From Mesorhizobium sp. DCY119 (GTDB lineage: Bacteria; Pseudomonadota; Alphaproteobacteria; Rhizobiales; Rhizobiaceae): a DNA stretch of 64,000 nucleotides. Positions 1 to 46,198 of this stretch are shown here, in pieces. Where the stretch lies: NCBI RefSeq assembly GCF_003590645.1, contig NZ_CP031834.1:1984501-2048500 (forward strand). The letters are read 5' to 3'. Numbering within the stretch: position 1 is the stretch's first letter; each line of letters opens with the position of its first letter. Both the position numbers and the translations under genes were made by a program. Below the pieces are notes generated by a model. That model was given only the letters and a program-made list of their open reading frames with translations, did not search any database and had not been told where the DNA came from.

Positions 1-151
1 GCCGCTGGCGCTTGTCACCAACGGCTCGCAGGATGCGCTTCTGACGGTTCGGCGTTTTCTCGATGGCGCGCGCGGCGGCATATATATGGAACCGAACGCG
101 GTCGATGCGGCTTTCCAGCCTTATGAAGAAACGGATGTCGTCTTCCGGTGA
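1..151 (+). CDS. C-terminal end of a RES-associated antitoxin (Xre/MbcA/ParS type), partial
   Basis: An open frame enters from the left edge and stops with TGA at 149-151, giving the last 49 residues. The segment begins PLALVTNGSQDALL and contains a second short block around VRRFLDGARGGIY. This resembles the toxin-binding tail (DUF2384/MbcA-type) of antitoxins paired with RES toxins. The stop overlaps the GTG start of the next gene by 4 bp (GTGA), the translational coupling usual for such pairs. The DNA-binding N-terminus lies outside the window, so the family assignment rests on the tail and the neighbour. Confidence 0.6.
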   Translation, partial: PLALVTNGSQDALLTVRRFLDGARGGIYMEPNAVDAAFQPYEETDVVFR

Positions 152-825
152 CGGAGCAGCTTTCGCCCGCGCCGCGCCCGGCGCATCGCCTCATCCCGTC
201 GCAGTTCCCGCCCATCGGCCTGTTCGATACCGTTGCGACGGCGGCGGACCTGACGGCTGTCATGGACCTCGTCGGCTGGACGAACGACCGGCTGGTGGCT
301 GAGCGCATCGGCCGCCTGCCGCAAAGCGAGTGGGTCTATGGTCGGTCGAACGCCAGTATCGTCATGGCGGCTTTCCTGCATGTCCCGCCCACCGGCGCGC
401 GGTTCAACGGGCCTGAGCTGGGCGCGTGGTATGCGGCCGCCGACCTGACCACGGCCGCCGCGGAAGTCGGCCACCATCTGCGCCGCGAGGCCGTCGCGCG
501 GGGCCTAGTGGAACTCAAGCGGAAGTACCGCGCCTATACGGCCAGGCTGGATGGCGAGTATGTCGATATAAGAGGGCTGCAAGCGTCGCTGCCCGCGCTT
601 TATGCGCCCGACAGCTACGCCGCATCCCAGCCATATGGCGAGGCGGTCAGGGTGTCGAAGAGCGACGGCGTCGTCTATGACTCAGTCAGATTGCACCGGG
701 GCATCTGCGCCGCAGCCTACAGGCCGTCGAAGATCGAAGATGTCGTGCAGGCCGACCATTTCGAGATCACGGTGTGGGCCGACCGGCGCACGATCGACGT
801 GAGGAAGCTGAAGTCCCGGAAATAG
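148..825 (+). CDS. RES-domain toxin
   Basis: 225 residues from a GTG that overlaps the upstream antitoxin stop. RES toxins deplete NAD+ through an ADP-ribosyltransferase-like fold and are held inactive by an Xre-type antitoxin. The diagnostic stretch is near residues 81-115: GARFNGPELGAWYAA followed by an Ala/Glu-rich helix (TTAAAEVGHHLRRE). It parallels the family pattern of a glycine-arginine segment, an ALYLA-like strand and a conserved Glu. The length is within the family range (about 150-230). No separate promoter is visible, so it is probably transcribed with the antitoxin. Activity of this copy is not shown. Confidence 0.75.
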   Translation: MTEQLSPAPRPAHRLIPSQFPPIGLFDTVATAADLTAVMDLVGWTNDRLVAERIGRLPQSEWVYGRSNASIVMAAFLHVPPTGARFNGPELGAWYAAADLTTAAAEVGHHLRREAVARGLVELKRKYRAYTARLDGEYVDIRGLQASLPALYAPDSYAASQPYGEAVRVSKSDGVVYDSVRLHRGICAAAYRPSKIEDVVQADHFEITVWADRRTIDVRKLKSRK

Positions 826-897: not shown

Positions 898-914
898 TCT
901 ACAATATTTGTAGA
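898..914. promoter_or_regulatory. TCTA-N9-TAGA operator candidate, perfect 17-bp palindrome
   Basis: TCTACAATATTTGTAGA is a perfect palindrome (arms TCTACAA/TTGTAGA). It lies in an AT-rich gap 43 nt before the ATG at 958. It is the most symmetrical of four TCTA-N9-TAGA sites in the first 15.3 kb. Its size and symmetry fit a dimeric winged-helix regulator such as an Rrf2 protein. The binding protein is inferred only from the neighbourhood. Confidence 0.6.
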
Positions 915-957: not shown

Positions 958-1149
958 ATGGCACATACAGACACTGTGATGTTTCGCGCTTTGGCCGATC
1001 TTTTGCGGGCCGGCAGGACCGATGCTTTATGCGGTCCTGTGGAAAAACGGAAAAGCCAAACCATTTCAAAGGATGAAGCGGAGAAGAACCGGCTTCCCGA
1101 GCGCGATGAAGGTTTTTATTGGGCCTGGCAGTATCCGGGGCTTTGGTAA
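958..1149 (+). CDS. Small hypothetical protein, 63 aa
   Basis: Begins MAHTDTVMFRALADLL and ends in an aromatic tail, FYWAWQYPGLW. The start was chosen at 958 because a perfect AGGAGG lies at 946-951, with six bases before the ATG; an upstream in-frame ATG at 937 has no such site. It has no signal peptide or membrane segment and a charged middle (KRKSQTISKDEAEKNR). I do not recognise the family. A strong ribosome binding site and the palindrome 43 nt upstream argue that it is expressed, possibly with the sulfur genes further on. Confidence 0.5.
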   Translation: MAHTDTVMFRALADLLRAGRTDALCGPVEKRKSQTISKDEAEKNRLPERDEGFYWAWQYPGLW

Positions 1150-1324: not shown

Positions 1325-1648
1325 ATGCCGACTTTGCTGCCCCCGCTTCATGAAGGCCATGCCCCATTCATTCTTCATCAGGCTTTCCACGACGCGCTGG
1401 ATGCTTACGAGGACTGGGCGCTCGACGCAGCCGAGCCCTTTGTGGAATTCGACGGCAAAAACGTTGCCGTAAGCGCCGTTTTTGGCCGGATGCGAACCTG
1501 CACCGATATACTGCCCATCCGCACGCTGGACGCCGTTCGCGACGTCGTTGGCGCCGGTTCAGCTCACGAACTGGTCAGCGACCAGATCACCTATGCGCAT
1601 GCCGCACTGCTGCTCCGGGCTCTCTGCGTGGACAGACTCAGAAACTGA
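1325..1648 (+). CDS. Hypothetical protein, 107 aa
   Basis: Begins MPTLLPPLHEGHAPF. The ATG at 1325 follows a GAGGA at 1313-1317 with suitable spacing; longer in-frame versions lack a ribosome binding site. The protein is soluble, rich in Ala, Asp and Leu, and has no recognisable catalytic motif. It sits between two TCTA-N9-TAGA sites and is followed by an AT-rich regulatory gap. Function unknown. The normal codon usage and good start context are the reasons for calling it real. Confidence 0.55.
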   Translation: MPTLLPPLHEGHAPFILHQAFHDALDAYEDWALDAAEPFVEFDGKNVAVSAVFGRMRTCTDILPIRTLDAVRDVVGAGSAHELVSDQITYAHAALLLRALCVDRLRN

Positions 1649-1761
1649 CGGGCGATTCCGCCCGTTTCGCATTTCCCTGATTTTGTAGAATTTCGTTCGC
1701 GAAACTAATGTTTGATAGAAACATGTTCCTCGTTTCGGCGTAAATTTCGCACTCGACAATG

Positions 1762-1778
1762 TCTACAAAAATCATAGA
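1762..1778. promoter_or_regulatory. TCTA-N9-TAGA operator candidate upstream of a 50-aa membrane protein
   Basis: TCTACAAAAATCATAGA, spaced exactly like the palindrome at 898 but with imperfect inner bases. It ends 24 nt before the ATG at 1803. Two loose half-site-like strings (TTGTAGAA at 1684-1691 and TGATAGAA near 1713) lie in the same gap, so more than one dimer could bind. The regulatory role is inference. Confidence 0.5.
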
Positions 1779-1802
1779 CTATCTGTAATTACGGAGGTCG
1801 TG

Positions 1803-1955
1803 ATGTCCCTAATACAGCAATCCGGAACCAAGCGGCTTTCGCTTCGCGGCCCCGTGACGTCCCGCCCGGCCGGCATTCGTGTCGGTCTCGAGACGTTGAT
1901 CTTCGCGCTCGCATTCGGCTTCACCGTTGCCGTCGTGCTCGGGCTGATCCCCTGA
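1803..1955 (+). CDS. Small single-span membrane protein, 50 aa
   Basis: An ATG at 1803 preceded by a strong GGAGG (1793-1797) opens a 50-residue frame ending TGA at 1953-1955. The N-terminal half is basic (KRLSLRGPVTSRPAGIR). The C-terminal half is one hydrophobic helix (LIFALAFGFTVAVVLGLI), so a one-span protein with a cytoplasmic basic tail is likely. It lies directly before the flavin monooxygenase gene and behind a TCTA-N9-TAGA site, so it may be the first gene of that transcript. No family recognised. It is too short for usual gene-calling cut-offs. Confidence 0.6.
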   Translation: MSLIQQSGTKRLSLRGPVTSRPAGIRVGLETLIFALAFGFTVAVVLGLIP

Positions 1956-1972: not shown

Positions 1973-2014
1973 GAGGCCACCCGCGCAAGGGGCGCGGGTT
2001 TAAGAACAGGCCTC
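1973..2014 (+). promoter_or_regulatory. Nested stem-loop in the leader of the LLM monooxygenase gene
   Basis: An outer 6-bp stem (GAGGCC 1973-1978 with GGCCTC 2009-2014) directly abuts an inner 8-bp stem (ACCCGCGC 1979-1986 with GCGCGGGT 1992-1999). The loop is AAGGG and a 9-nt bulge lies on the 3' side only. No uridine run follows, so it does not look like a rho-independent terminator. It starts 18 nt after the small membrane protein and ends 65 nt before the monooxygenase ATG. It could be a regulatory leader, a processing site or an mRNA stabiliser. Confidence 0.45.
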
Positions 2015-2079
2015 ACAGTTAAATCACAACCAGTTTTGCGCCGAAAGGTGCTGCAGGTAAGACGATGGAGGAGAGTGCC

Positions 2080-3042
2080 ATGCATGTCGAATTCACCAGC
2101 CGTACCGAAAGATGGACGGAAGCCGAGGCTGCCCGTTCATCCGATCTGCTCGCCCGCCAGAGCCAGGCGCATCGCCTTGCTCGCGCCGTAGAAGGTGCCG
2201 GGCTTGACCGGCTGCTCATCGCAGACAATCAGGGTCTTGCGGACAACGGCCAGCTTGCTTCTTTCGTTCTGCACAACACCTTCAACCTCGGCGTTGTCGT
2301 GTCCCACAGCGCTGGCGTTCTGGCCCCACAGGTAGCTGCCCAGCAATTCGCCACGCTCGACCAGCTGAGCGGCGGGCGGCTGTCCATCCGCATCGTTGCC
2401 GGCGACACCGGGCTCGATCATGAGGCAAGCCTTGCTCGTACCGACGAATATCTGGTGCTGCTCAAGCGGCTGTGGGCAAACGATAAGCCTTTCGATCACG
2501 AAGGGCCGCATTACAGCCTGAAGGATGCATTCGCCGGCTCCAAGCCGTTCGGCCGCGCGCAGATACCGTTCATCCTTGGCGGGCTTTCCGGCACGGCAAT
2601 CAAGATCGCGGCCAAGCATGCCGATCTGTTCGAACTGCCCGCCGGCACGGTCGCCGAGGCGCGGCAGACCATCTCGCGGGTGCGCGCCGCTGCCGCCTGC
2701 CATGGGCGGTCGGACAAGATCCGCTTCTCCGTGCCCGTCCGGCCGGTGATTGCCGGCACGCGGGCCGAAGCCTGGGCCAAGGCCGACAGGCTCGGCCATG
2801 ACGGCGAAGCGATCCGGCTTGTCGGAACCGCCGAGCAGGTCGCGCTGGCCCTGCTTTCCTATTGCGATCTCGGCGTGCGCGAGTTCGTGCTGCACGGCCT
2901 CGACCAGCCGCACGACCTTGCGACATTCGGCAGGGACGTGGCTGCAATCGTCAAGCGCTCGGTGGCGCGCCAGGAGTCCGAAGCGCCTCAGCCGGAATTC
3001 GGCGAGGCGATCTACCTCCCGTTCCGTAGCCGCGCTTCGTAA
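2080..3042 (+). CDS. LLM-class flavin-dependent monooxygenase (alkanesulfonate monooxygenase-like)
   Basis: 320 residues from the ATG at 2080, chosen because GGAGGAG (2067-2073) precedes it; an ATG at 2065 overlaps that site. The protein has the bacterial luciferase-like layout: an N-terminal EGAGLDRLLIADN segment, an APQVAAQQFATLDQLSGGR helix, then the strand RIVAGD. SsuD-type relatives use reduced FMN and O2 to release sulfite from organosulfonates. The sulfate importers and Rrf2 regulator nearby fit a sulfur-scavenging role, but no reductase or substrate is identifiable here. It is convergent with the DUF5996 gene. Confidence 0.75.
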   Translation: MHVEFTSRTERWTEAEAARSSDLLARQSQAHRLARAVEGAGLDRLLIADNQGLADNGQLASFVLHNTFNLGVVVSHSAGVLAPQVAAQQFATLDQLSGGRLSIRIVAGDTGLDHEASLARTDEYLVLLKRLWANDKPFDHEGPHYSLKDAFAGSKPFGRAQIPFILGGLSGTAIKIAAKHADLFELPAGTVAEARQTISRVRAAAACHGRSDKIRFSVPVRPVIAGTRAEAWAKADRLGHDGEAIRLVGTAEQVALALLSYCDLGVREFVLHGLDQPHDLATFGRDVAAIVKRSVARQESEAPQPEFGEAIYLPFRSRAS

Positions 3043-3068: not shown

Positions 3069-4004
3069 CTATAAGGGCCGGGGCCTGCGCGGCTCGCCGA
3101 TGGAACATTCGAGAGCAGCTACGTCCCATCCAGCCGACCCGGCCGCCGCGCGGTAAGTGCTTTCCAGGAAAGCCAGAAGTGCTGCCTCGGGGTCTGCTGC
3201 CTGGCGAACCGCATCGTAAGGCAGCAGGAATTCGCCGAGCGTTTTGTCGAAATAGGCGGCCTCGGGGGTCACCTGTGCATCGGCAAATCCTGCCGGCGCC
3301 GGATAGGCATAGGAATAGAACGCCGGAAAATCGACACTCCCGCCGCCCGGCCAGAAGCCCGCCGAAGAAACCTCGTGGCTGTAGGCTTCGCGGGTAACGT
3401 CGTCGGGCAATGCCGGTATGCCGCCGGGGTGCAGGGGCGCACGCCTGCCGGAAAAGCGCGTCACGGCGAGATCGAAACTTCCCCAGAAGAGATGAACCGG
3501 GCTGACCTTGCCGAGATAGGCGGTGCGAAATGTCTGGAACACGCCCGACACCGAGACCAGGGCCCTGAAAAAGCGGGTGACAGCTTCGGCATCGTAAGGA
3601 CGCTCCGCCCGGTCCTCAGCGAAGGGCAGGGCATTGGGGATTTCGTTCGGCGCGCCGTGCAGTTCGGGTGTTCCTCCGAGCGAGCGGACAAGCTCCAGGA
3701 ATTGCCCGTGGAAGGCTGCGACGGACATCGGCCCGAGCGCGAAACTCGCCTTGCGCCCGTCAGTGCAAGCTCCGACCAGCTGGTGGTCGATGAGATCGAA
3801 GCTCACCTCGATGCCGCCGGACAGGTCAGGCACCAGTCCGGTGGTGAGGCCGCGGGCATTCGGATAGAGCGTGGCGTGCCACGAATGGTTGACCCATGGT
3901 GTCCGGGCGAGCCGATATTTGCCGACGATCTGCGTGTAAAGATGAAGCGCGGCGCATGTGTCGCGCCACGGAAGGTAGGGTATTTCGGGCCAGCCTGCGT
4001 GCAT
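3069..4004 (-). CDS. DUF5996 family protein
   Basis: 311 residues beginning MHAGWPEIPYLPWRDTC. The LYTQIVGKYRLARTPWVNH block near residues 22-40 and the central GGIEVSFDLIDHQL are typical of the DUF5996 family, whose biochemical role is unknown. There are many aromatic and histidine residues but no nucleotide-binding loop, signal peptide or membrane helix. It ends 27 bp from the convergent monooxygenase gene. It lies about 90 bp downstream of the FAD-binding protein on the same strand and may be co-transcribed with it. Confidence 0.65.
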   Translation of the reverse strand: MHAGWPEIPYLPWRDTCAALHLYTQIVGKYRLARTPWVNHSWHATLYPNARGLTTGLVPDLSGGIEVSFDLIDHQLVGACTDGRKASFALGPMSVAAFHGQFLELVRSLGGTPELHGAPNEIPNALPFAEDRAERPYDAEAVTRFFRALVSVSGVFQTFRTAYLGKVSPVHLFWGSFDLAVTRFSGRRAPLHPGGIPALPDDVTREAYSHEVSSAGFWPGGGSVDFPAFYSYAYPAPAGFADAQVTPEAAYFDKTLGEFLLPYDAVRQAADPEAALLAFLESTYRAAAGSAGWDVAALECSIGEPRRPRPL

Positions 4005-5495: not shown

Positions 5496-5945
5496 TCAGA
5501 TGTGGTACTTGATGTCCTGTAGCACGTCGTCGTTGTCGGCGTCGCGCATGGCAGCCAGGCTGCGATTGTCCAGCACGTCGGCGATCGCCTGACGCACTTC
5601 GAGCATCATGTGCCGGACTTGGCATGTCGCCTCGTCACAGTCTTCGCAGCGCTGATACTGGGTGCGGCTGGCGCATGGGATCGGGGCCAGCGGGCCGTCG
5701 AGAACGCGCACGACATGGCCGATCTTGATCTCGGCCGCCGGCCGGGCGAGGCGATAGCCACCATCCTTGCCCTTACGGCTCTGGACGAAACCGGCATTGC
5801 GCAATTCGCCGAGAATGGCGTCGAGGAATTTCTTCGGGATATTGTTGGCAACCGCGATGTCGTTGACGAACGCCAACTGGCCGACAGGCATGCCTGAAAG
5901 ATGCACGAGGGCCTTGAGGCCGTATTTGCCTTTTTTAGTGAGCAT
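5496..5945 (-). CDS. Rrf2 family transcriptional regulator with a four-cysteine loop
   Basis: 149 residues. The winged helix (MLTKKGKYGLKALVHL at the start; KGKDGGYRLARPAAEI as the wing near 58-73) is typical of Rrf2 proteins such as IscR, CymR, NsrR and RirA. The C-terminal half carries Cys91, Cys100, Cys103 and Cys108 (CASRTQYQRCEDCDEATC), a plausible site for an iron-sulfur cluster or thiol sensing. It is the only DNA-binding regulator in the 2-15 kb sulfur block, which makes it the first candidate to bind the TCTA-N9-TAGA sites. It is upstream of and probably co-transcribed with the FAD protein. Confidence 0.85.
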   Translation of the reverse strand: MLTKKGKYGLKALVHLSGMPVGQLAFVNDIAVANNIPKKFLDAILGELRNAGFVQSRKGKDGGYRLARPAAEIKIGHVVRVLDGPLAPIPCASRTQYQRCEDCDEATCQVRHMMLEVRQAIADVLDNRSLAAMRDADNDDVLQDIKYHI

Positions 5946-6272: not shown

Positions 6273-6289
6273 TCTACAAGAGTAGTAGA
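6273..6289. promoter_or_regulatory. TCTA-N9-TAGA operator candidate upstream of the 50-aa protein and the Rrf2 gene
   Basis: TCTACAAGAGTAGTAGA, inner arms partly symmetrical (TCTAC/GTAGA). It lies 23 nt before the GTG of the small gene on the minus strand and about 330 bp before the Rrf2 start. It is close enough to cover a promoter for both, which would make the regulator autoregulatory. Function inferred from spacing and recurrence. Confidence 0.5.
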
Positions 6290-15265: not shown

Positions 15266-15282
15266 TCTATCGATTTGATAGA
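15266..15282. promoter_or_regulatory. TCTA-N9-TAGA operator candidate upstream of sbp copy 2
   Basis: TCTATCGATTTGATAGA, palindromic arms TCTATC/GATAGA. It ends 28 nt before the sbp ATG, a position that would block or overlap a promoter. It is the only one of the four motif sites in front of a gene with a recognised sulfur function, and so anchors the idea of a sulfur-linked regulon. Confidence 0.55.
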
Positions 15283-17789: not shown

Positions 17790-17992
17790 CGCCCCTCATC
17801 CGCCTGCCGGCACCTTCTCCCCGTATAGTGACGGGGAGAAGAAGGCTGGCCGCAACCCTACCGCTTCCTCCTTCGAGGAAAGAAGAAGGCTGGCTGCAAC
17901 GTCGATGCCCCCCTCTCCCCGTTTACGGGGGTCCGAAGGACGGGCAAGACCCGTGGCTCGCCCCGGAATGGGTAAGGGTGAGGGGCGGCGCG
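17790..17992. repeat. Palindromic intergenic repeat between yfhM and pbpC
   Basis: Ends are mutually inverted (CCGCCCCTCATC near 17790-17800; GTGAGGGGCGGCG near 17977-17990). Inside, AGAAGAAGGCTGGCCGCAAC near 17838-17857 recurs at 17881-17900 with one change and again near 46110. CAAGACCCGTGGCTCG (17945-17960) matches the 11.2- and 15.5-kb copies. The element reaches to within 4 bp of the pbpC start and so supplies its leader. Confidence 0.75.
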
Positions 17993-25763: not shown

Positions 25764-26798
25764 ATGTTTGCTTTCATTATACGCCGTCTCGGGACCATGG
25801 TTCTGACCATGCTGTGCCTGACGATGGTCGTCTTCTTCATGGTGAATCTGGAACCGAACCTGAAGAAGCTGGCGATCAGCCAGCTCGACATGCGCAGTCC
25901 GGCCGACCAGATCGAAAGCTGGCTGGTCAAGAACGGCTACCGGCAGAACTTCTTCGTGCGCTACGGCCAGTGGATCGGCGTGGTGAAGAAGCAGCCCAAT
26001 ATCGACGCCACTGGCAAAGCCATACCGCGGTTCTCATTCTGCAATGAGCCGTCAGAACCTTATTATGGCGGGGTGCTGGAAGGCGATTTTGGCTGCTCGA
26101 CCAAGTTCAAAACCAAGGTCGCCAACAAGCTTTTCCCGGCATTGGGTGCCACCGGCATATTGATGTTCTGGGTTATGGTGACGATGGTGCCGATCGCGCT
26201 GCTCATCGGCATATTGGCCGGCATGCGCGAAGGCACCCGAACCGATAGAACCCTCTCGGTCGCCTCGATCGCGACAACGGCGACGCCCGAATATGTTTCC
26301 GGCATCATCTTTACCGTCATCTTTGCCTCATGGCTCGGCTGGCTGAACGGCTCTGCCGCAACAGCGACGGCGCAAGGCATCACCTTCTACAATTTCACGC
26401 TGCCGGTGATGACCATGGCGATATATGGCATCGGCTACATTGCCCGCATGACCCGCGCCTCGATGGTCGAGGTAATGACGCAGCAATATATCCGCACAGC
26501 GCGGCTGAAGGGACTGAGCTTCTCCAGCGTCGTCATCAAGCATGCGCTGCGCAACGCGCTGATCGCGCCGTTCACCGTCATCATGCTGCAGTTTCCATGG
26601 CTGCTCACCGGCGTGGTCATTGTCGAGGTGATGTTCCGCTATCAGGGCTTTGGCTACACGCTGGTGGAAGCCGCAGGCAACAACGACATCGATCTCCTAC
26701 TCGGCTGTTCGCTGGTCTCGGTCTTCGTCGTTCTGTTCACCCAGCTCATCTCGGACCTGGGCTACGCCTACCTCAATCCACGCATCAGGGTGCAGTAA
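25764..26798 (+). CDS. ABC transporter permease, OppB/DppB family
   Basis: 344 residues. The N-terminal helix MFAFIIRRLGTMVLTMLCLTMVVFFMV is typical of DppB-type permeases and is followed by a periplasmic region of about 90 residues with a CNEPSEP segment. The coupling motif is near RTARLKGLSFSSVVIKHALRNALI, and the C-terminus GCSLVSVFVVLFTQLISDLGYAYLNPRIR is the usual ending. It lies 95 bp after the binding protein gene and 1 bp before the next permease, clearly one operon. Confidence 0.9.
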   Translation: MFAFIIRRLGTMVLTMLCLTMVVFFMVNLEPNLKKLAISQLDMRSPADQIESWLVKNGYRQNFFVRYGQWIGVVKKQPNIDATGKAIPRFSFCNEPSEPYYGGVLEGDFGCSTKFKTKVANKLFPALGATGILMFWVMVTMVPIALLIGILAGMREGTRTDRTLSVASIATTATPEYVSGIIFTVIFASWLGWLNGSAATATAQGITFYNFTLPVMTMAIYGIGYIARMTRASMVEVMTQQYIRTARLKGLSFSSVVIKHALRNALIAPFTVIMLQFPWLLTGVVIVEVMFRYQGFGYTLVEAAGNNDIDLLLGCSLVSVFVVLFTQLISDLGYAYLNPRIRVQ

Positions 26799-32490: not shown

Positions 32491-32672
32491 TCGACCCCCA
32501 CTCCGTCTCGCTTCGCTCGACACCTCTCCCCCGATCGACGGGGAGAGGAAAGGCGCCAAGATCGCAGCTGCCCTGCAGGGAGACCGAAGTCAACGTTGAT
32601 GGAAACGCGCTGACTTCCTCTCCCCCGTCGATCGGGGGAGAGGTGTCCGCAAAGCGGACGGAGTGGGGGTCG
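32491..32672. repeat. Long inverted intergenic repeat between mttB-like and DMGDH-like genes
   Basis: About 60-bp arms are near-complementary: the left arm runs from TCGACCCCCACTCCGTC to CGACGGGGAGAGGAA (32491-32550). The right arm runs from TTCCTCTCCCCCGTCGATCG to GGAGTGGGGGTCGA (32614-32672). They flank a core of about 63 bp. The transcript could fold into a very long hairpin. No gene seen here. It separates two genes that probably act together. Confidence 0.8.
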
Positions 32673-46060: not shown

Positions 46061-46198
46061 CGCGCCGCCCCTCATCCCCCTGCCGGGACCTTCTCCCCGT
46101 AAACGGGGAGAAGAAGGCTGGCCGCAACTTTGCCGCTTCTTCCTTCTCCCCGTTTACGGGGAGAAGGTGGCCCGAAGGGTCGGATGAGGGGCAGCGCG
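46061..46198. repeat. Palindromic intergenic repeat inside the ABC transporter operon
   Basis: Inverted arms CCTTCTCCCCGTAAACGGGG near 46089-46108 and CCTTCTCCCCGTTTACGGGG near 46142-46161 each contain a smaller palindrome. Outer ends GCCGCCCCTCATCC and GGATGAGGGGCAGCG are also inverted. AGAAGAAGGCTGGCCGCAAC (about 46110-46129) also occurs in the 17.9-kb copy. It lies between the ATPase and the first permease and could uncouple their expression. Confidence 0.8.

Follow-up and report, generated by a model that had tools for sequence, protein, structure and literature searches.

A nested stem-loop between a putative small membrane protein gene and an LLM monooxygenase gene of Mesorhizobium sp. 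DCY119, a probable case of operon fine-tuning

A nested stem-loop (H1) was characterized in a stretch of 64,000 nucleotides of the Mesorhizobium sp. DCY119 genome, referred to here as the window, where it separates a gene for a 50-amino-acid hydrophobic protein from a gene for a luciferase-like (LLM) flavin monooxygenase. We give a probability of about 0.5 to the reading that H1 is an ordinary intercistronic stem-loop of the pufBA type, which sets the ratio of the upstream to the downstream message; in these terms it is a plain example of what is probably operon fine-tuning. The original prediction had placed the structure in a leader before the LLM gene. Its true position is intercistronic, since the open reading frame (ORF) at 1803-1955 stops 17 nt before H1 starts, and the most likely LLM start, at 2080, lies 65 nt beyond its end. 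The features of the operon and of its surroundings are listed in Table 1.

Table 1. Coordinates of the features discussed, numbered from the first nucleotide of the window.
Feature	Position	Strand	Basis or remark
Near-perfect second palindrome, TCTACAATATTTGTAGA	898..914		just upstream of the 63-aa ORF
BRA0787-family protein gene	1325..1648	+	NF052508, E 4e-42, above cut-off
Promoter-like TCGACA-N16-TAGACT	1753..1780	+	9/12 consensus positions; block seen again in related operons
Palindrome TCTACAAAAATCATAGA, starting between the hexamers and reaching into the -10	1762..1778		consensus search of the window
Small protein gene, 50 aa, unannotated, hydrophobic C-terminal segment (upstream cistron)	1803..1955	+	codon changes vs M. 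zhangyense; profile matches
H1 outer stem, 5' arm, GAGGCC	1973..1978	+	predicted fold; M. zhangyense keeps 5/6 pairs, the sixth being C-A
H1 inner stem, 5' arm, ACCCGCGC	1979..1986	+	8/8 pairs kept in M. zhangyense
H1 loop	1987..1991	+	predicted fold
H1 inner stem, 3' arm, GCGCGGGT	1992..1999	+	predicted fold and M. zhangyense comparison
H1 one-sided bulge, 3' side, 9 nt	2000..2008	+	10 nt in the M. zhangyense predicted fold
H1 outer stem, 3' arm, GGCCTC	2009..2014	+	predicted fold and M. zhangyense comparison
Linker behind H1, 23 nt, A/T-rich (70%), mostly unpaired	2015..2037	+	mean unpaired probability 0.75
Second small hairpin H2, GCGCC-GAAA-GGTGC	2038..2051	+	predicted fold; M. zhangyense has one double-sided change, C-G to T-A
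LLM gene Shine-Dalgarno, GGAGGAG	2067..2073	+	window sequence; also in M. zhangyense
LLM flavin monooxygenase gene (downstream cistron)	2080..3042	+	PF00296, E 1e-41
Rrf2-family regulator gene	5496..5945	-	PF02082, E 9e-35; Cys 91, 100, 103 and 108
Palindrome-like site upstream of the Rrf2 gene	6273..6289		3 mismatches
Palindrome-like site near the start of the sulfate ABC transporter operon	15266..15282		3 mismatches

Both stems of H1 are perfect in the window sequence (outer 6 bp, inner 8 bp), and no T run follows position 2014 on the plus strand; the sequence and the predicted fold thus confirmed the stacked stems, the one-sided bulge and the missing T run that had originally been described. 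The region 1956-2064 folds with -38.7 kcal/mol (z = -3.26), and one of 200 dinucleotide shuffles was as stable. GC-rich stems of 8 bp are by themselves no rarity here: the window has 18 placements with 8 or more pairs, where some hairpins count twice, against 5.2 in shuffles. A nested hairpin like H1, defined as a stem of at least 8 pairs with at least 7 G/C that is enclosed within 12 nt by another of 6 pairs or more, was found once in the window, with 0.05 expected (1 in 20 shuffles). The outstanding trait of H1 is its nesting and not the 8-bp stem itself. An origin as a mobile repeat was rejected, the 421-base region matching its own genome once. From its predicted accessibility, the linker behind H1 is a plausible candidate site for an endonuclease.

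A comparison of the upstream ORF with M. zhangyense (L012) gave 12 synonymous and two non-synonymous changed codons, with 11 of the 14 base changes at third positions, an excess of synonymous and third-position changes indicating that 1803-1955 is a real gene. Its product is a putative small membrane protein, judging by the hydrophobic segment read from the sequence; it fell into no Pfam family and had no credible NCBIfam assignment (one chance-level NCBIfam match, in 1 of 12 members). The LLM gene likely starts at ATG 2080 rather than at 2065, with GGAGGAG at 2067-2073, and the protein scored 99.6 bits against the NCBIfam alkanesulfonate monooxygenase, far below the cut-off of 518. According to the predicted fold, the LLM ribosome-binding site in the window is mostly unpaired with H1 formed (0.59 in longer context) and the start codon is partly paired, as are the first bases of the ribosome-binding site in M. 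zhangyense. A direct pairing of H1 with this site was considered and discarded, since, read from the sequence, it comprises just CCUC/GAGG in the window and is lost in M. zhangyense. Beyond the LLM gene, a DUF5996 protein gene (3069-4004, minus strand, E 2e-134) precedes a gene for an FAD/NAD-binding protein.

The small-protein profile matched 101 of 394 genomes of the family (E <= 0.01; weak matches at the low end may be false); by genus, matches were obtained in 10/10 genomes of g52 and in 92/99 of g74, which was taken as Mesorhizobium because the match in G470 has the coordinates of the match on the Mesorhizobium sp. L-2-11 plasmid. An LLM gene was detected behind the small ORF in 26 of the 69 distinct loci read, which represent part of the profile-positive genomes. 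The extension to Mesorhizobium and g52 covered 98 loci, four of them with no LLM gene in reach, and yielded 94 distinct spacers (85 from g74 and 9 from g52). At E < 1e-5, loci with the LLM gene had an operator-like site in 22/24 cases and those without it in 12/36, and a terminator-like hairpin followed the small gene in 1/24 with versus 11/36 without a detected LLM gene; the terminator filter missed two loci judged to be terminators by eye (L076 and L082), and a few loci counted as lacking LLM may have the gene beyond tblastn reach (L067 resembles L065). The recurrent gene order and the operator-like site in front of the small gene suggest that both genes may share one transcript. A DNA search with 1780-2400 in 151 genomes matched ten, namely the genome itself, its sister and eight with short stretches inside the LLM gene. 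A scan of named genomes with the LLM protein gave 15 loci, of which two were used (L012 and L018), and the plasmid searches added one useful Mesorhizobium plasmid.

The comparison within the window's genus comprises two sequences. The inner stem of M. zhangyense retains its pairing through double-sided changes (A-T to G-C and C-G to T-A) and two changes to G-U, and all six substitutions are transitions. When three plus three random substitutions were introduced, all eight inner pairs were kept in 0.3% of the cases with any substitution and in 9% with transitions only; as the observed changes fall under the 9% case, stem retention in M. zhangyense is on its own suggestive but not conclusive. 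A second case was observed in two near-identical Mesorhizobium spacers (L150 and L148), whose sole two substitutions in the first 100 bases make up one H1 pair, G-C in one and A-T in the other; past these 100 bases they differ by a few indels and about one substitution. The claim of a structured RNA, which had been made to depend on compensatory changes in relatives, is supported by such changes for the inner stem, whereas one pair of the outer stem is a C-A mismatch in the sister species.

In a loop-anchored count of 21 Mesorhizobium sequences, selected for a best hairpin with the chosen loops, A-T replaced G-C in 1/14 at one pair and in 3/7 at another; a 21-sequence alignment with two hairpin registers one base apart was left out of the counting. 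Double-sided pairs in the g52 set (six of nine spacers) were not above column shuffles, of which 122/500 reached the observed value. Aligned together, 75 of 85 Mesorhizobium spacers showed almost no consensus structure, since both the place and the sequence of H1 vary between clades. No core sequence common to the genera was seen by eye, the hairpin sequences being lineage-specific and the hairpin weak or absent in many operons. For H2, a column-wise covariation count over 36 Mesorhizobium sequences (from 50 extracts) revealed no double-sided pairs, and H2 is therefore not claimed to be conserved.

In 41 of 108 homologous spacers, against 5.4 expected, the best stem within the first 60 nt had p <= 0.05 (100 shuffles each), these spacers being related by descent and the counts not independent. 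The first spacer set, with Watson-Crick pairs only, had a significant hairpin in 9/26, and the mean fold z of the first 60 nt over the first 26 regions was -0.58, with three regions below -2. Five of the 12 genera contained significant first-60-nt hairpins (g1, 2/2; g52, 6/9; g74, 29/85; g81, 2/2; g155, 2/2), and seven had none (g164, two spacers; g71, g36, g75, g60, g68 and g8, one each). The stretch before the LLM gene also carried a hairpin with p <= 0.05 in 24/97 spacers (100 shuffles each), indicating that the place of H1 is not special in hairpin occurrence. A palindromic GCAATTCC...GGAATTGC element, seemingly inserted in homologous spacers, was noticed in Mesorhizobium L137, L140 and L151, where it falls by eye between the apparent H1 arms, and also in L189.

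As in pufBA-type elements, H1 is a stable hairpin between two co-oriented genes, without a U-tract, and its stem is kept by compensatory change (in the two sequences of this genus and in Mesorhizobium L150/L148). A stem that is kept while its sequence turns over, located right after the stop codon and replaced by a terminator at some loci with no LLM gene, fits a mechanical role. Under the proposed mechanism, a two-gene transcript would carry the small membrane protein, H1 and the LLM monooxygenase, with RNA polymerase reading through H1 for want of a U-tract. The message would then be cleaved endonucleolytically in the A/U-rich linker, or its LLM part would decay from the 3' end, and H1 would block the 3'-to-5' exonucleases. 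The small-protein message would thereby outlive the LLM message, and this protection of the upstream part would lead to two products in unequal amounts.

The closest known counterpart is the hairpin behind pufBA in the pufBALMX transcript of Rhodobacter, which is also alphaproteobacterial and, like H1, ends a short membrane-protein segment of a polycistronic transcript. PMC10253847 describes that deletion of this 3'-end stabilising hairpin altered the ratio of reaction centre to light-harvesting complex I; that effect was measured, whereas for H1 we infer it, and the gene products and their regulation are unrelated. In E. coli, differential decay with protective structures is given for about 12% of polycistronic mRNAs in PMC5927463. 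The 3' structures of the maltose-operon type treated there resemble H1 in standing after the first cistron, at a presumed boundary of stable and unstable message, but they are often within the next coding region, whereas H1 is wholly intergenic and differs in sequence between genera. Terminator-like hairpins of other Rhizobiaceae loci (such as L041, L075 and L084) lie at a similar distance from the small-gene stop (about 20-26 nt, compared with 17 nt for H1); unlike H1, they have stems of 12-13 pairs followed by T runs, and these loci have no detected LLM gene downstream.

The main rival of the stabilising stem-loop is partial termination, with H1 as a weak or partial terminator, a pause or a Rho-linked site that passes a share of the polymerases into the LLM gene. 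The terminator-like hairpins at 11 of the 36 loci without LLM would make H1 a possible terminator derivative, and in the window the inner stem is followed by TTTAAG. This reading is nonetheless doubtful: a plus-strand U-tract is absent in the window and in M. zhangyense (GTAAAA after the inner stem), at least five T in an 8-base window after H1 were found in just 4/108 spacers (L198, L210, L131 and L077), and no plus-strand intrinsic terminator was called for this genome (L001) or its sister (L003). The original statement that H1 is not a terminator therefore holds for the plus strand, the terminator-like listing being restricted to the minus strand. On that strand H1 is followed by a T run, GGCCTCTTTTT in the window and GGCCTCTTTT in M. 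zhangyense, and could act as an intrinsic terminator that halts antisense transcription from within the LLM gene. We regard this as quite unlikely, because such a T run accompanies H1 in just 4/108 spacers, both sequences of the window's genus among them, and the sole long minus-strand ORF behind H1 (2137-2913, GTG start) lies antisense within the LLM gene and is taken as spurious. It is also unlikely that H1 has no function at all. On this reading GC-rich hairpins would arise often in such spacers, and the window does have an excess of 8-bp GC-rich stems over shuffles (18 placements vs 5.2); 67 of the 108 related spacers have no significant hairpin at this place, and some homologous spacers contain palindromic elements. 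The compensatory changes in the window's genus and in Mesorhizobium, and the uniqueness of the nested form in the window, argue for a function.

The original prediction further raised a metabolite-sensing or processed RNA in a sulfur-related transcript. Sulfate-transport genes do lie nearby, and a processed RNA agrees with the stabilising role favoured here; metabolite sensing found no such backing. A ligand- or protein-responsive RNA made of H1 together with H2, tying LLM expression to sulfur status, would suit the probable Rrf2/sulfate gene neighbourhood, the two intergenic hairpins and their double-sided changes in M. zhangyense, and the predicted partial pairing of the LLM start codon and of the first bases of the M. 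zhangyense ribosome-binding site. The Rfam search suggested with that prediction returned no family at H1 at the gathering threshold over the whole window; with E relaxed to 10, the stretch 1640-2120 gave five sub-threshold matches, all on the minus strand. In addition, the ribosome-binding site of the window is mostly unpaired with H1 formed, the promoter already has a probable operator, and the sequence-conserved core that an aptamer should display across relatives was not seen by eye, the H1 sequence differing by lineage. Since the sequence turns over with the stem retained, a ligand-binding aptamer is unlikely, and the responsive RNA as a whole seems very improbable. Just as little weight is given to a regulated switch in which sulfur status would alter the processing of H1 and H2 and thus the supply of LLM monooxygenase. 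The signal might pass through an RNA-binding protein, or through the small protein as it is translated or inserted into the membrane; such a switch would add a second level of control beneath the Rrf2-type repressor, and the stem would be conserved as structure alone.

The promoter-like match ahead of the small gene is weak alone, given that one such pattern was present in the region and 0.8 were expected in shuffles. The palindrome overlapping it resembles an Rrf2-type operator and is a probable repressor operator. With up to three mismatches, the consensus TCTAYAAAATTTRTAGA gave six matches (four sites) in the window versus 0.01 expected; on both strands of the whole genome it gave 16 versus 8 for the reversed control, so the three-mismatch pattern is weak at genome scale and just its clustering near this locus is telling. 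The Rrf2-family protein is a candidate repressor that may bind the palindromes. Some of the relatives likewise have its gene next to the operon, and in some the BRA0787-family gene again adjoins the small ORF. Two sulfate/thiosulfate ABC transporter clusters are located downstream in the neighbourhood. The 63-aa ORF that precedes the BRA0787-family gene (958-1149, plus strand) is 92% identical in M. zhangyense.

Other features were recorded elsewhere in the window. Rfam RF02647 (Cis52_sRNA) matched 26373-26553 on the minus strand with 79.6 bits (gathering score 56). Repeated CTTCTCCCCG...CGGGGAGAAG palindromes, which resemble dispersed intergenic repeats of rhizobia, were located at 17814-17841, 32523-32643 and 46090-46167. 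A RES-domain protein gene (148-825, plus strand, PF08808) may encode the toxin of a RES-Xre type pair, in which case the window edge would truncate the partner gene upstream of it.

A description of the small-protein/operator/LLM unit was not found in the literature searched. Searches for articles on Rrf2 with sulfonate, LLM, CymR or sulfate turned up nothing recognised as describing a small-protein/LLM operon, and a term search of the main text of the S. meliloti small-proteome paper found Rrf2, LLM, monooxygenase and sulfur all absent. For BRA0787, one published table gives the name as an oligopeptide import component, a misfit with the NCBIfam protein. We consider this operon a better find than the hairpin and deserving of a separate look: a rhizobial unit of a conserved 50-aa hydrophobic protein, a shared, probable palindromic operator and an LLM monooxygenase, often accompanied by a BRA0787-family protein and an Rrf2 regulator, which makes testable both the role of the small protein and whether its amount differs from that of the enzyme.
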